This document shows, piece by piece, positions 35,132 to 52,036 of a DNA stretch of 64,000 nt. The notes beneath the pieces are model-generated. The model had not been told where the DNA came from and did not search any database. It saw only the letters and a list, made by a program, of their open reading frames with translations. Location of the stretch: NCBI GenBank assembly GCA_021297895.1, contig JAJTHN010000019.1, forward strand, positions 62,001-126,000, read 5' to 3'. This DNA comes from Phycisphaeraceae bacterium (GTDB lineage Bacteria > Planctomycetota > Phycisphaerae > Phycisphaerales > UBA1924). Both the position numbers and the translations under genes were made by a program. Within the stretch, counting starts at the first letter, position 1. The number at the start of each line of letters is the position of its first letter.

Positions 35132-35674
35132 TTATCCGCGAAGTTTCGCGTTTCCCGCCGGCCGCGGCGGCCGGGCGAGCATCGCGGTCGCGCGGCGGCG
35201 GGCGGCGCAGAGCGCGATGGCCAGCGCATCGGTCGCATCCATCGGCCTGAGCGGTGATGACAGGCCCAGTTCACGCATCACGCTCCGCTGGACCTGCTGC
35301 TTGCCGGCCTGACCGTTCCCGGTGATGGCCTTCTTGACCTCCGCGGGCCGCACCTCGATGACCGGCACGCCCGACTGCGCGCACGCCAGCAGGATCACGC
35401 CCCGGGCGTGGCCCATGATGATGACCGAGGCGGGGCGCTCGGCGTGGGTGAAGATCGCTTCCAGAGCGATCAGCGCGGGGGTGTGCCGCGCGATGAGCGC
35501 GGCGACATCGGCGTGCAGCTCGACCAGCCGCGCCGCCAGCGTGGCCGATGCGGGCAGGCGGATGACCCCGGCCTCGATGAGCGAGAGGCCGCGCGGGCCG
35601 ATCCCGCCGCCATGATCGTTCACGCAGCCGAAGCCGGTGATGCGCGAGCCGGGATCGATGCCCAGGATGATCAT
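35132..35674 (-). CDS. ruvC: Crossover junction endodeoxyribonuclease RuvC
   Basis: RuvC cuts Holliday junctions during recombinational repair. The ATG at 35674 gives MIILGIDPGSRITGFG, with catalytic Asp7; LEAIFTH and DATDALAIALC supply the other acidic residues. At 180 residues the length is right. It overlaps ribE by 4 bases and is followed 9 bases later by the NtrC-type regulator, so it is the middle gene of a three-gene operon. ruvA and ruvB are not in the window. Confidence 0.95.
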   Translation of the reverse strand: MIILGIDPGSRITGFGCVNDHGGGIGPRGLSLIEAGVIRLPASATLAARLVELHADVAALIARHTPALIALEAIFTHAERPASVIIMGHARGVILLACAQSGVPVIEVRPAEVKKAITGNGQAGKQQVQRSVMRELGLSSPLRPMDATDALAIALCAARRRATAMLARPPRPAGNAKLRG

Positions 35675-36393
35675 GCTTTCCCGGCCCGTGGGCCATCGGC
35701 CCCCGCGTCCGCCGGCTCTCCGGCCGCGGGGTTGATCAGCCCCGCGAGCGTCTGTGCCGGGAGCGTGCGCAGCGTCTGCACGATGGCCTTGATGAGCATG
35801 TCGCCCTCGATGTTCACCGCATGACCGGGCTGCAATTCGCGCAGGGTCGTGCGCTCGAGCGTCTGGGGGATCAGCGCGATCGAGAACGTCCTGGCCGCGT
35901 GGTTCACTTCGGCGATCGTCAGCGACACACCGTCGACGCACACCGAACCCTTGGGCGTCAGAGAGGGCGCGACGGCCGCGGGAACGCGGATGGCCACGCG
36001 CCAATCGGCCTTGGCCTGCACGGCGATGACCTCACCGGTCGCATCGATGTGACCCTGCACGAAGTGTCCGCCCATGAGCGTGGCGGCCGTGACGGCGTGC
36101 TCGAGGTTCACGCGCGCGCCGATGGTCAGTCTGCCGAGCGTCGTTCGGCTCAGCGTCTCGGGGATGACATCGAACCCCCAGCACCCCTGCCGGGAGAGAT
36201 CCGCGACGGTCAGACACACGCCGCTGACGGCGATCGAGTCGCCAAGGGCCGGCGGCGGCAGCGGATGATCCCAGTTTGTCGGCTCGATGACCATCCGCAA
36301 GATCCTGGGCGCATCCGGTCGTGCCGGATCGGGCGTGCCCCGTGGACGAACCTCTCTGAGCCTGCCAGTCGCTTGCACAAGTCCGGTGAACAT
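35671..36393 (-). CDS. ribE: Riboflavin synthase alpha subunit
   Basis: The enzyme joins two molecules of dimethylribityllumazine into riboflavin. The ATG at 36393 gives MFTGLVQATG, the family start. Two tandem lumazine-binding domains follow, each with an SxxVxGVxLTV-type core (IAVSGVCLTVADL and VCVDGVSLTIAEV), and GGHFVQGHID lies between them. The tail from about residue 205 is a short Ala/Gly extension. No FMN riboswitch was seen upstream. It is the first gene of a small operon with ruvC. Confidence 0.95.
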   Translation of the reverse strand: MFTGLVQATGRLREVRPRGTPDPARPDAPRILRMVIEPTNWDHPLPPPALGDSIAVSGVCLTVADLSRQGCWGFDVIPETLSRTTLGRLTIGARVNLEHAVTAATLMGGHFVQGHIDATGEVIAVQAKADWRVAIRVPAAVAPSLTPKGSVCVDGVSLTIAEVNHAARTFSIALIPQTLERTTLRELQPGHAVNIEGDMLIKAIVQTLRTLPAQTLAGLINPAAGEPADAGADGPRAGKA

Positions 36394-36432
36394 TGCCGCG
36401 AGGGTAGGGTGCGGGAGGGGGCGCGGGGGAAA

Positions 36433-36540
36433 AGCCACAAAGCAGCGGAGGTTCAAAGCAGCAAATCAGAAAGATCGTGCCCCGAGTTCTATCGGGGGAG
36501 GTGGCGGGTCTTCGAGCCGAAGAGTGCGCGCGGTGGGGGG
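36433..36540 (-). repeat. Hairpin element copy 1, left of array 1
   Basis: Core CCCCGAGTTCTATCGGGG hairpin followed by GAGGTGGCGGGTCTTCGAGCC; the left arm reads TTCAAAGCAGCAAATCAGA. It matches the reverse complement of the copy at 37246-37345 over about 95 bases, including the outer arm. Confidence 0.8.
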
Positions 36541-36749
36541 CCGGGGGCGGTTCGGCACGCCGCCGCGGGGTGATCGTTCCGGCGGGTGGGGCCGGGGGTG
36601 GCCGGAGCGCCGATCGGGGATGGTCGCAGCGCGGGATGCATGGGGCGGTTCCCGGCTGCGCAGCGGAGCCGCCGCGCTGATGACACGGGCCGCGCGCTCG
36701 GCATCGCGGGGCAGCCGTGCGGCCAAGTGCGGGGCTCGTTTGGGGAAAC

Positions 36750-37040
36750 GAGGCCCTCGTGATCGCAGATGAGCACCTCACGTGCGCAGATGGGCTCCTC
36801 GTGGTCGCAAACGAGCTCCTCATCTGCGCAGATGGGCTCCTTGTTGTCGAGAACGAGCTCCTCACTTGCGCAGATGAACTCCTTGTTGTCGATAATGAGC
36901 TCCTCACTTGCGCAGATGAGCTCCTCGTTGTCGCAAACGAGCTCCTCACTTGCGCAGATGAGCTCCTCGTTATCGCAAACGAGCTCCTCACTTGCGCAGA
37001 TGAGCTCCTCGTTGTCGCAAACGAGCTCCTCACTTGCGCG
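36750..37040. repeat. Tandem array 1, 21 bp unit in 42 bp pairs
   Basis: About 13 full units of 21 bp follow each other from 36771 without gaps, alternating between two types, GAGCTCCTCACTTGCGCAGAT and GAGCTCCTCGTTGTCGCAAA(C); together they form a 42 bp higher-order repeat. The right-hand units are almost identical while the left-hand ones are diverged, which fits recent amplification from one end. The 7-codon unit gives heptad-like peptides in several frames (ELLTCAD/ELLVVAN plus strand; EELICAS/EELVCDN minus strand). No start or binding site supports expression. Confidence 0.92.
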
Positions 37041-37147
37041 CTCGCGGAGCCCATCGGCGGATGTGCCCCCCGCCGCTGCGATCACGCCGCCGCTTTTTTC
37101 GGACCTCCGCACAGGACCCGGACAGTTGGGAGGCCGCACCTCTCAAG

Positions 37148-37201
37148 GTCCTCCCCCGGTTGCCACCGGGGGAGGTGCCGCATCCTCGCGGCGGAGGGGG
37201 T
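37148..37201 (-). repeat. Hairpin element copy 2
   Basis: CTCCCCCGGTTGCCACCGGGGGAG hairpin (given in part), followed by GTGCCGCATCCTCGCGGCGG. In reverse complement it matches the copy at 51853-51909 closely. Confidence 0.8.
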
Positions 37202-37245
37202 GTGGGGGGTGGATGTTCGCAGATCAGCGTGCTGACGGGGCGTTT

Positions 37246-37345
37246 TCCCCCTCCGGCTCGAAGACTCGCCACCTCCCCCGTTCGGAAACGGGGGAGGAGC
37301 TGTCTGATTTGCTGATTTGAGCCTTTGCTGCTTTGAGCTTTCGCC
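37246..37345 (+). repeat. Hairpin element copy 3, right of array 1
   Basis: CCCCCTCCGGCTCGAAGACT leads into a CCTCCCCCGTT/AACGGGGGAGG hairpin, then the outer arm TCTGATTTGCTGATTTGAGC and TTTGCTGCTTTGAGC. It is inverted relative to copy 1. Confidence 0.82.
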
Positions 37346-37483
37346 CCGCTCCCCCCGCCGGTTCGACCTGTGATGCGACCCCCGATACACTGCCCCCCGC
37401 TCCGAACCGAACTTTGACGATCCGATCCACGGTCCCTCCGGCCACTTTGCCCGCTGCGGGCCTGCCGACCTCATGAGCCCACC

Positions 37484-37942
37484 ATGAACCTTCTGGACAT
37501 CCTCAACCCCGCTTGCATCAAGGCTCCGATGGCCGCGACCGACAAACGCGGGGTGATCGAAGAACTCGTCGATGTGCTCGTCGCCGGAGGGCGGATCAGC
37601 GATCCGGCGACGCTCAAGGAAGCGGTGTGGAGCCGCGAGCAGACCCGCACAACGGGCATCGGTCACGGGCTGGCGATCCCTCACGGCAAGTGTTCGGGCG
37701 TGAGCGACCTGTCGATGGCCATCGGCAAGCCCGCGACGCCGATCGACTTCGCCGCGATCGACCGCAAGCCCGTGCAGTTGGTGATTCTTCTGGCCAGTCC
37801 GCCCGATCGTGCCAGCGATCACATCCAGGCCCTCGCACGCGTGAGCAGGCTCATGACCATGAGCGACTTCCGCGAGCAGATCTACGCCGCCGGTTCGGCC
37901 GCGGAGATCTACGAACTGTTCAAGTCCCACGAAACGCCGTGA
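37484..37942 (+). CDS. PTS sugar transporter subunit IIA (PtsN/fructose type)
   Basis: The 152-residue protein is a PTS EIIA domain of the mannitol/fructose class. The phosphoryl-accepting His67 is seen in GHGLAIPHGK, and the family features REQTRTTGIG and LLASPPDRASDHIQALARVS are present. It has no EIIB or EIIC partner nearby, so a regulatory role like PtsN is more likely than sugar uptake. The polyprenyl synthase begins about 200 bases downstream on the same strand. Confidence 0.9.
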   Translation: MNLLDILNPACIKAPMAATDKRGVIEELVDVLVAGGRISDPATLKEAVWSREQTRTTGIGHGLAIPHGKCSGVSDLSMAIGKPATPIDFAAIDRKPVQLVILLASPPDRASDHIQALARVSRLMTMSDFREQIYAAGSAAEIYELFKSHETP

Positions 37943-43120: not shown

Positions 43121-44611
43121 TCACCGCCGGTCGAGAGCAAGCTGCGGATCGCCGGTTCCGACAAGCACCAGCCGCACGCCCAGGGGGCGGGGAAGCGACG
43201 CCGGATCATCAAAGTGCTTGGCGGCAAAGCTCGCCGCGCGGCAATCGCAGTAGTGCGACGGATCGCCGTAATACCCACCGCGATAAGAGCGCTGCGACAA
43301 CGCAAACACTGAGGGCTCGCGTACAACCGGATCGAGACCGGTGGGCATTTTTCGCGCCCAGTAATCAAGGCACCATTCGGCGACCGAGCCGTTCATGTCG
43401 TGGAGGCCGGCCCAGTTGGCCTTCCGAGTGGCGACCGGGTGGAGTTTGTCGCCCGAGTTCTCGAACGTCCATGCCTGCTCATTGAATGTTGGCGATCGCC
43501 AGTTGCCCGCTGTCAGGCTCGGTCCGCCGCACGCGAGCATCCATTGCGCCACGCTCGGGAGCGTGAATCCCTCGGTTTCCCGCTCAAGCGGAACGCCATC
43601 ATCAGGCCTTCGCCCGCTGACCGCGTCGGCGATCCGCGCCGCCCTGGCCCATGTGGCTTCGGCGATCGGCAACTGTCGACGGTCATCGGCAACCGCCAGG
43701 GCTCCATCGACGCCGCCTTCAATGAGCGCCCCCTGTGCCTCGGTCAGCTCCGTCACCGCGATCCAAAAGCCCTTGCTCGCCGTCACGCGGTCGTACTGGG
43801 TGTCGGGAAGGCTCTCGTCCTTCGCGATGGCCATCGTCGCGGGACGGATCCACCGCATCCGCATGCCGAACCAGGTGGTCAGCACCGGATGCTCGCGTCG
43901 GTCAACAACCACTCGCCCGCTCCCGACCACGCGAAGGTTCTCGTGCCGCACGCCGATGAGCGTGTCATCGAACGGCAGGTGCGTGCCCGCCGCGCGACCC
44001 TGCTCACGGGCCGCGCGACGATCGAGCAGTTCGCGGATCGCCGGATCGACTTCTCTCTCGGGCAGGGCCGGCAGCCCGTCGGAGCCATCGATGCCGAAGC
44101 GACTCAGTCCGTCGATGATGCTCGGCGGCAATGTCCAGGCCCCGGCCAGCTCCGAGCTCCAGATGACCCGTTCGCCGGGCCCGACGGCGGTCGCCGCGAG
44201 CACGACATCGTGGCTCTCCGACGAGACGCGACCGGCGAACGCGATCACCCGGTTGCCCGCCGCATCGAGCGGCACAAGGTCCGCCGCATCGAGCGAAGAC
44301 CGCGGCGGCAACACGATGATGCGGCCGCTCGGCAGCAGGATCATCGCATCCATCGCGGGCGAGCCGTTGACGATCGTCGTCGCGCCCGCATCGCCCGATT
44401 GCTGCACGCCGCCGCTCCGCTCCGGGACGGACGACTGCGCACCCGTGGCGTCCGGACTAGGTTCACCCGCCCACACGCCGCGAATGGTAAAGAGCGAGAG
44501 CAACAGGACGGCGGCGTGGCGCCGCCTCCATACCTTGACGTGCCACCGGCTCGCCGGGCCTTTGGGGTGGCGCCGAATCGGTGCGGTCTTTCTTGAGGAT
44601 TTGATCAGCAT
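43121..44611 (-). CDS. Secreted FGE/SUMF1-domain protein lacking one catalytic Cys
   Basis: The C-terminal 230 residues are a formylglycine-generating-enzyme-like domain: ASKGFWIAVTELTEAQ, FTLPSVAQWMLACGG, GLHDMNGSVAEWCLDYW and RGGYYGDPSHYCDCRAAS, ending in GVRLVLVG. In true FGE the final segment holds two Cys; here the second is present and the first position reads Asp, so catalysis of formylglycine formation is unlikely. A signal peptide (HAAVLLLSLFTIRGVWAG) lies about 30 residues into the frame; those first residues are encoded inside repeat D2, so the start at 44611 is doubtful. Confidence 0.78.
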   Translation of the reverse strand: MLIKSSRKTAPIRRHPKGPASRWHVKVWRRRHAAVLLLSLFTIRGVWAGEPSPDATGAQSSVPERSGGVQQSGDAGATTIVNGSPAMDAMILLPSGRIIVLPPRSSLDAADLVPLDAAGNRVIAFAGRVSSESHDVVLAATAVGPGERVIWSSELAGAWTLPPSIIDGLSRFGIDGSDGLPALPEREVDPAIRELLDRRAAREQGRAAGTHLPFDDTLIGVRHENLRVVGSGRVVVDRREHPVLTTWFGMRMRWIRPATMAIAKDESLPDTQYDRVTASKGFWIAVTELTEAQGALIEGGVDGALAVADDRRQLPIAEATWARAARIADAVSGRRPDDGVPLERETEGFTLPSVAQWMLACGGPSLTAGNWRSPTFNEQAWTFENSGDKLHPVATRKANWAGLHDMNGSVAEWCLDYWARKMPTGLDPVVREPSVFALSQRSYRGGYYGDPSHYCDCRAASFAAKHFDDPASLPRPLGVRLVLVGTGDPQLALDRR

Positions 44612-51039: not shown

Positions 51040-51100
51040 CCCCCTCCGCCTCGAAGACTCGCCCCCCGCACCTCACTCGCTGAGCGGGGGGAGGATCTCG
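51040..51100 (+). repeat. Hairpin element copy 4, left of array 2
   Basis: CCCCCTCCGCCTCGAAGACT precedes a stem CCCCCCGC/GCGGGGGG, then AGGATCTCGG. It shares the left half with copies 3 and 5; the hairpin loop is enlarged. Confidence 0.75.
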
Positions 51101-51333
51101 GAGGGTCTTCGAGGAGAGTCTACAGGATTCCGGCGGCTTGGCGGCGGTGGAGCGGGTGGATTGGCAGTCGTTTCGCGGCGAGCGCTGGCGGGCGGGTGTC
51201 GGGGGGTGCGGGGCGGCGTGCGCGGGGCCGCGCGGGGGCTTCGCCGATGCGGCTTGGAGGGGTTCCGGGCCGCGCGCGCGGGCGTCCGATGGGCTTCGGA
51301 GGGTCTCCGATGAGGCTCGGAAGGGTTCCGAGC

Positions 51334-51660
51334 AGCGCGCGCGGAGCGGAAACGTGCATCTGCGGTCTTCCGAGCAGCGCGCGCGGAGGAAAAATGATCG
51401 TTTTTCGTCTCCAGAGCCTCATCGGAAGGCTTCAGGGCAGCGCGTGCGAAGCACATTCGTGCATTTTTAGTCCTCAGGACAGCGCGCGCGGAGCAAAGTG
51501 ATACGTTTTTACTCTCCAGAGCAGCGCGCGCGGAGTAAAAGCGATCATTTGTGCTCTCCAGAGCAGCGCGCGCGGAGTAAAAACGTGCATTTTTACTCCT
51601 CAGGGCAGCGCGCGCGGAGCACATTCGTGCATTTTTAGTCCTCAGGACCGCGCGCGCGAG
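51334..51660. repeat. Tandem array 2, 42 bp period (one 63 bp step)
   Basis: The core AGCGCGCGCGGAG recurs at 51334, 51376, 51439 (variant), 51481, 51523, 51564, 51607 and about 51648. The steps are 42 bases within one base, except for a single step of 63, so the basic period is 21. Between cores lie A/T-rich pieces such as TAAAAACGTGCATTTTTACT, themselves partly palindromic. On the minus strand the frame gives a basic 14-residue repeat (ARAALRTKNARMCS). More diverged units extend left to about 51240. Confidence 0.9.
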
Positions 51661-51852
51661 GCTCAGATGGGTGAATCGGGCTTCGTTTGGGGCTTCGGAA
51701 CGCCCCGCGCGGGGGCGAAATTGCGGCTGAACTGGCCGCGGATTCGACGCGGGCGCGGCGGCTGAGGGGAAACGACGAAGAGAACGGCGGGTGGACGTGG
51801 GGCGGAACGGGGGCGGGGAGGGGGTAAGACGGGGCGCGGCGGGGTCGGAAGA

Positions 51853-51909
51853 ACCCCCTCCGCCTCGAGGACTCGGCACCTCCCCCGTTGGGAAACGGGG
51901 GAGGAGCTT
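51853..51909 (+). repeat. Hairpin element copy 5, right of array 2
   Basis: CCCCCTCCGCCTCGAGGACT, CGGCACCTCCCCCGTT and GGGAAACGGGGGAGGAGCTT. It is the best match to copies 2 (inverted) and 3 (direct). A further GGGGGAGGAACTTGAGG lies just to the right. Confidence 0.83.
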
Positions 51910-51961
51910 GAGGCAACGGGGGAGGAACTTGAGGAAATGGGTGAGCAGCTTTCTGGCTCCG

Positions 51962-52036
51962 CCACTCTGCCACTGCGTCACTCTGCCACTGCGCCACTCC
52001 GCCACTGCGCCACCCTGCCACTGCGCCACTCCGCCG
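51962..52036. repeat. 8/16 bp tandem repeat
   Basis: About nine copies of an 8-base unit, alternating CCACTCYG and CCACTGCG, forming 16-base pairs. It lies about 95 bases before the start codon of the secreted protein at 52130. Confidence 0.9.

Follow-up and report, generated by a model that had tools for sequence, protein, structure and literature searches.

The window, by which we mean the whole 64,000-nt stretch of DNA analysed, carries a tandem array at 36755-37039, listed, like the other tandem repeats of the window given below, without a strand. The array lies between two divergently oriented genes outside the element, as the left neighbour, encoding riboflavin synthase (Lum_binding; 35671-36390, putative start codon), is on the minus strand and the right neighbour, encoding a PTS EIIA-type protein (37484-37942), on the plus strand. 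TRF described the array with a period of 42 nt, made of two 21-bp half-units with dyad symmetry, and with 6.8 copies, 90% match, 0% indels and a score of 430, the highest of the 18 TRF rows in the window. Its length corresponds to 13.6 units of 21 bp, and degenerate units stretch it to about 36739-37050. The array is flanked by two 109-nt arms, a left one at 36414-36522 (minus strand) and a right one at 37251-37359 (plus strand), which form an imperfect inverted repeat with 77% complementarity. The right arm carries a hairpin element of about 55 nt, hereafter H, on the leader side of the array; the copy used for the searches was at 37247-37304 (plus strand). A diverged copy is contained in the left arm (36469-36522), an additional one lies between the array and the right arm (37146-37200, minus strand), and a short 16-bp tandem repeat of TTTGCTGATTTGAGCC (37308-37338, 1.9 copies in TRF) stands beside H.

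Self-identity of the array was 0.63 at lag 21, 0.84 at lag 42 and 0.79 at lag 84; it was 0.21 at lags 20 and 22, with a mean of 0.24 over all lags that are not multiples of 21. Identity of each unit to the next copy, by thirds counted from the right, was 0.90, 0.87 and 0.63. The first-pass annotation had reported about 13 or more uninterrupted 21-bp units, more alike on the right than on the left, within inverted arms and with an extra hairpin; all of this agreed with our measurements, and its coordinates for array, arms and hairpin were correct to about 20 bases. Elsewhere in the genome the array matched one other place, at 79%, besides its own reverse strand.

The position of the array was compared with the gene order of relatives, in which the PTS gene stands in a different order. 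We considered the best 80 of the 247 named relatives of the PTS protein, which reached up to 74% identity and most of which had titles of Phycisphaerales or Planctomycetota, in a collection that may lack the own record; the source is accordingly taken to be a planctomycete of the order Phycisphaerales. The gene rsmB was at most 4 kb from the PTS gene in 64 of these 80 named loci, whereas in the genome studied here it is on a separate contig, away from the PTS gene; hence the array is at a gene-order breakpoint, as a single case.

The window contains a second array of the same class at 51244-51658, for which TRF gave periods of 42, 63 and 105. It belongs to an element (51040-52035) composed of a partial, 27-nt H copy on the distal side (51040-51066, plus strand, in direct orientation), the array, whose period is 21n (a multiple of 21), an H copy on the leader side (51854-51908, plus strand) and 8/16-bp repeats of the GCCACTCTGCCACTGC type at the outer edge (51957-52035). 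The ends of this element resemble those of the elements at L046, L049 and L054. A codon-based caller gave few genes at about 41.4-52.2 kb of the window, where there was one FGE-sulfatase match (43121-44407).

A 141-base query around H gave 63 matches with E <= 0.01 in the 3.48-Mb genome, many of them close to contig ends. A search for relatives of these sequences had been suggested from the outset, and for H it returned matches in 14 of 41 genomes (25 of the family, 16 from other families of the order, with the own genome counted). All 14 belong to the family, and in four of them (G003, G006, G014, G020) the weak matches shown miss the H core. Similarly, in a draw of 118 genomes across the phylum four matched H at 1e-4, every one in the family. 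Six arrays of the own genome were bracketed by H, and the outer copies were inverted only at the window array and direct in the other five, one of which was counted on the 27-nt partial copy. Since H is dispersed and its outer copies are direct in five of six cases, the arms are members of a dispersed repeat and not the ends of a transposon, so the inverted arms were discarded both as transposon ends and as MITE terminal inverted repeats. An inspection by eye of the aligned outer ends of one element family did not reveal common inverted ends. We found no match to window positions 36400-37400 in plasmid and phage records, and none to the 24-base H core in viral contigs.

No transposase was tied to the element. 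The genome has one clear Y1_Tnp gene (C71:143723-144067) and one partial match at C16. The clear gene, which is IS200-like (L339:900-2300, that is G000:C71 near 143.7 kb), is flanked by palindromic repeats of its own, which centre on CCACGGGT/ACCCGTGG and are unlike H; it lies among these non-H repeats about 4 kb from the array of L035. A stretch of about 200 bp on the distal side of two related arrays recurs several times around this transposase locus, with copies at L035:3907-4113, L035:6526-6723, L059:4061-4256 and in L339. In the relative G002 the H core itself is in tandem with a 48-bp period, which is not a multiple of 21 (L097:2823-3054 and L094:2546-2791).

Members found through the hairpin search share a layout in which 8-bp repeats and H are followed by a leader (about 200 bp), the array, a distal spacer and sometimes a second H. 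Repeats of 8 and 16 bp are also present beside many H copies, and about twenty loci near H copies hold arrays, with periods of 21, 42, 63, 84, 105 or 126. Non-coding units of about 0.7-1 kb recur at several loci with 81-94% identity, precisely 88.6% over 961 columns for L046/L049, 93.7% over 712 columns for L054/L065 and 80.9% over 901 columns for L035/L059. Several copies touch contig ends, the weakest parts of the assembly. Both L035 and L059 are internal to their contigs and differ from each other, so these are two distinct loci. The genes examined next to arrays were a mixed set, encoding glutamine synthetase III, an AI-2E transporter, beta-propeller proteins, a DNA methylase and a sigma factor. 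In 14 of 16 arrays the units were more alike in the half next to the leader than in the distal one, a count that depends on the bounds chosen and includes related arrays. The window array had been taken for a non-autonomous mobile or amplifying element: the recurring non-coding units and the change of copy number by whole units speak for this, and the part of the claim that rested on inverted ends has to be given up.

To survey the periods we counted non-coding arrays with a period >= 17 and a TRF score >= 110. In the samples of the family, 23 of 26 had a period that was a multiple of 21, mostly with sequences unrelated to each other, where about 1 in 21 would be expected by chance. By genome these were 13 of 16 in this genome (864 kb), 5/5 in G023 (200 kb), 3/3 in G108 (200 kb), and a single array each, again a multiple of 21, in G064 (200 kb) and G024 (400 kb); 200 kb of G015 held no non-coding array of any period. 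One of the 23, with a period of 126, is the spacing between H copies, and without this case the count becomes 22/25; two others are from a single locus (contig C73). The three exceptions in the family were a G run (29) and periods of 33 and 40. Outside the family, 200 kb of G039 gave no array, 200 kb of G130 gave one multiple of 21 out of two (period 63), which may be coding as it showed heptads on translation by eye, and 648 kb around a gene in 80 named records gave two out of three (L216, L244). The sampled stretches were non-random, several being on contigs or regions already known for H; in the samples not centred on H (the second sample of the own genome, G108 and G064) the arrays were multiples of 21 in 7/7 cases. 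With a TRF score >= 70, over L138-L197, L279-L328 and the window, the multiples of 21 were 33 of 45 non-coding arrays vs 11 of 45 coding ones. Arrays were also present at L140, L149 and L297 with no H match within the same 20-kb stretch, which indicates that H is not required. Some arrays are purine-rich (GAAGAGG type) with periods of 21 or 63 bp, at L149:18248-18358, L297:3827-3955 and L297:6735-6963. We consider a period-locked class of arrays in this family as well supported. The list of 30 arrays used below for drift, dyads and coding was chosen for being 21n, and the period bias rests on the separate surveys just described.

Loci whose leaders are 90-95% identical can hold different arrays and still keep the step. 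The common leader of L041 and L044 spans 315 columns with 14 substitutions and 5 indels, and their arrays do not align; L060, L063 and L064, whose leaders are shared (about 10% substitutions), differ in the sequence of their units; L057 and L062, with 28 substitutions in 249 columns of leader, have arrays that align only at 72% with gaps. The distances between anchors in the leader and in the trailer were 221 for L057, 200 for L062, 179 for L060 and 221/242/284 for L063, which are 11 modulo 21 in all four loci. The copy number of the arrays thus changes by whole units. In the higher-order arrays the identity at lag 21 goes down to about 0.38 and at lag 63 is still 0.79-0.85.

By local alignment, six pairs of related arrays had 121 substitutions, two +1/-1 pairs and one net +21, whereas the flanks of five of these six pairs had 175 substitutions and 42 indels; in this contrast some pairs share members, and the flanks, whose composition is unlike that of the arrays, are not a clean control. 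With wider bounds, small gaps appeared inside or at the edge of the arrays in L054/L065, L047/L046 and L043/window array, and also in the hardly alignable arrays of L057/L062 and L060/L063. In 31 arrays, a banded self-alignment resulted in 124 gaps vs 1172 substitutions, the gaps being unsorted and many of them in compensating pairs or at array ends; as this procedure is prone to placing gaps in pairs where units have diverged, it was excluded from the indel contrast. A deficit of indels in arrays relative to flanks is therefore likely, short of proved. The following arrays are not independent of each other: the window array and L043; L035 and L059; L046, L047 and L049; L054, L058 and L065.

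Dyad symmetry was compared with 300 column-permutation controls, each made by one permutation of the 21 columns applied identically to all units, and with related arrays counted separately. It was above 95% of the controls in 19 of 30 arrays and significant in 3 of 8 further ones, for a total of 22/38. The symmetry was not significant in the other 16 of the 38, including two purine-rich arrays with almost none, which leaves no binding motif that could be named for all arrays. Five arrays that share a leader have the dyad centre at one register and different stems, and pairing left with right arms of the same array (0.655) was the best of the 120 possible assignments. With an odd period of 21, every dyad centre is necessarily accompanied by another at a distance of 10.5 bp, and this second centre is not independent evidence.

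The 21-bp period had been read at first as either two turns of DNA or one protein heptad. The former fits better, and a coiled-coil peptide is disfavoured on the evidence given below. The helical period of DNA is described as near 10.5 bp (PMC3372288). Our main reading, to which we assign a probability of roughly 0.4, is that these are MITE-like intergenic elements carrying a DNA satellite that is kept in helical phase and grows by whole units. They would represent bacterial minisatellites of a class that keeps the length of its unit (21 bp, two turns of B-DNA) and lets the sequence change freely. The arrays would function as DNA, forming a lattice in phase with the helix whose dyads, spaced by 10.5 bp, all point to one side, and the lattice would most likely be occupied by a hypothetical symmetric DNA-binding or nucleoid protein. 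Slippage by units or unequal exchange would supply variants, and those that break the step would be removed by selection for helical phase. Directly observed among the elements of this reading are the period bias, the length change by whole units, the near-constant leaders before different arrays, the frequent dyads with co-varying arms and the few indels in arrays.

A neutral satellite with a mutational ruler would account for much of the same data and is a possibility to be taken seriously, if somewhat less probable. Here growth by slippage or unequal exchange would proceed in 21-bp steps set by helix geometry or by the footprint of an enzyme, template switching would perfect the quasi-palindromes, and the element would persist without function as a dispersed repeat. 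Template switching that extends identity between the arms of quasi-palindromes is described in PMC3820800. Such a ruler, of which we know no example, explains one step in unrelated sequences, including the purine-rich arrays that have no dyads, as well as the length changes by whole units, the homogeneous middle with decayed edges and the intergenic position. Alone, it leaves unexplained why arrays have fewer indels than flanks at comparable substitutions and why higher-order arrays keep the step when neighbouring units have so little in common. Phase selection and mutational ruler fit nearly equally, and we lean slightly to phase selection because of the indel contrast and the co-variation of the arms.

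If the arrays were transcribed and their units folded as hairpins, they could be a structured non-coding RNA, a reading that we consider improbable. The dyad-symmetric units agree with it, and the window array folded as RNA beats all 200 shuffles on both strands (z -6.8 plus, -5.3 minus). However, any self-complementary array folds well, so these folds do not decide for RNA; in fact, a single strand of the same array folded as DNA is also better than shuffles (z -3.7). Mispairs in 16 leader-oriented arrays were 263 G-T vs 234 A-C, with 48 of the G-T from L044 alone, hence there is no RNA-like excess. Rfam gave no family in the window at gathering score, and no sigma-70-like promoter match was found in 36380-37500, which says little for a planctomycete.

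The case for coding was examined on the same list of 30 arrays. If 21 bp stood for seven codons, the arrays would encode heptad (coiled-coil) peptides. A stop-free frame with a positive codon score was present in 7 of 30 arrays, among them L037 (+0.36 per codon) and the window array, whose open frame has fairly gene-like codons (+0.26 per codon) and over which a gene caller gave a weak ORF (36489-37085, score 12). The array at L064:4083-4328 (21-bp period, 11.7 copies), with an open frame and gene-like codons (+0.50), is probably a coding heptad repeat. Furthermore, the coding arrays of the own genome are often 21n too (9/23), and in 6 of 30 arrays the mismatches were uneven by position modulo 3 (P < 0.05). 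Against this, 23 of 30 arrays had no stop-free frame of positive score, Pfam gave no family in two ORFs over the window array, and coding arrays also use other multiples of three, being 21n in 11 of 45 cases, and non-coding ones in 33 of 45, in the survey at the lower TRF score. The pairs rich in substitutions showed no codon-position bias (9/8/5, 6/7/4 and 7/6/2, and 22/17/20 for the window array against L043); the four substitutions of the L035/L059 pair are all in one codon-position class. Stops, codon scores and codon-position counts thus disfavour coding as a general account, and a coding role is unlikely for the arrays as a class, though single ones may code, with heptad peptides the least probable of the readings considered here.

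More broadly, and as a rather doubtful proposal, these may be satellites whose defining trait is their length instead of their sequence. Some agent in these Phycisphaerales, either a lattice of protein or a ruler of enzymatic nature, would write and maintain intergenic arrays with almost any sequence in exact steps of 21 bp, and the inherited character would be the helical phase. Repeat families are usually identified by a common sequence, and similarity searches miss one whose members have only the period in common. A step held by selection would point to a protein able to recognise helical phase in DNA, and a step held by mutation would reveal a ruler at work in tandem duplication. The near-identical leaders followed by different arrays are a natural experiment on selection vs mutation.

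In the open-access literature searched, we found no recognisable description of such arrays, and we compared them with four known systems. CRISPR arrays have a leader on one side and repeats separated by unique spacers. The arrays described here likewise have a one-sided leader with more uniform units on its side; unlike CRISPR, their units run head to tail with no spacers, no repeat is conserved across loci, and the adjacent genes examined were not cas. Eukaryotic satellite DNA has higher-order repeats in multiples of a base unit, a homogenised centre and decayed edges. Here too the base unit occurs in multiples of two, three and more, and the centre is homogenised and the edges decayed, but the arrays are short (about 100-490 bp), stand between bacterial genes and keep one period across unrelated sequences. 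As for REP elements, which carry a GTAG/CGTC tag (PMC3733652), H resembles them in being a short, dispersed, intergenic palindrome with many copies, often in pairs or clusters; it differs from them, as described there, in that inspection of 21 aligned H copies found neither GTAG nor CGTC at the foot of the stem and that no RAYT gene was tied to it.

The closest known system is BrickBuilt of Porphyromonas gingivalis (PMC4596501), a minisatellite inside a MITE, reported with 19 copies in one strain. The elements studied here share with MITEs that they are short, non-coding and dispersed between genes in many copies, and with BrickBuilt, as that paper describes it, the dispersed intergenic position, the leader and tail around an uninterrupted, spacerless tandem array, the variable copy number and a comparable number of loci. 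BrickBuilt itself is described with one 23-nt repeat across loci and small inverted-repeat ends, whereas the arrays of this family have a 21-bp unit, a sequence that is specific to each locus even behind similar leaders, and flanking hairpins that are mostly direct.
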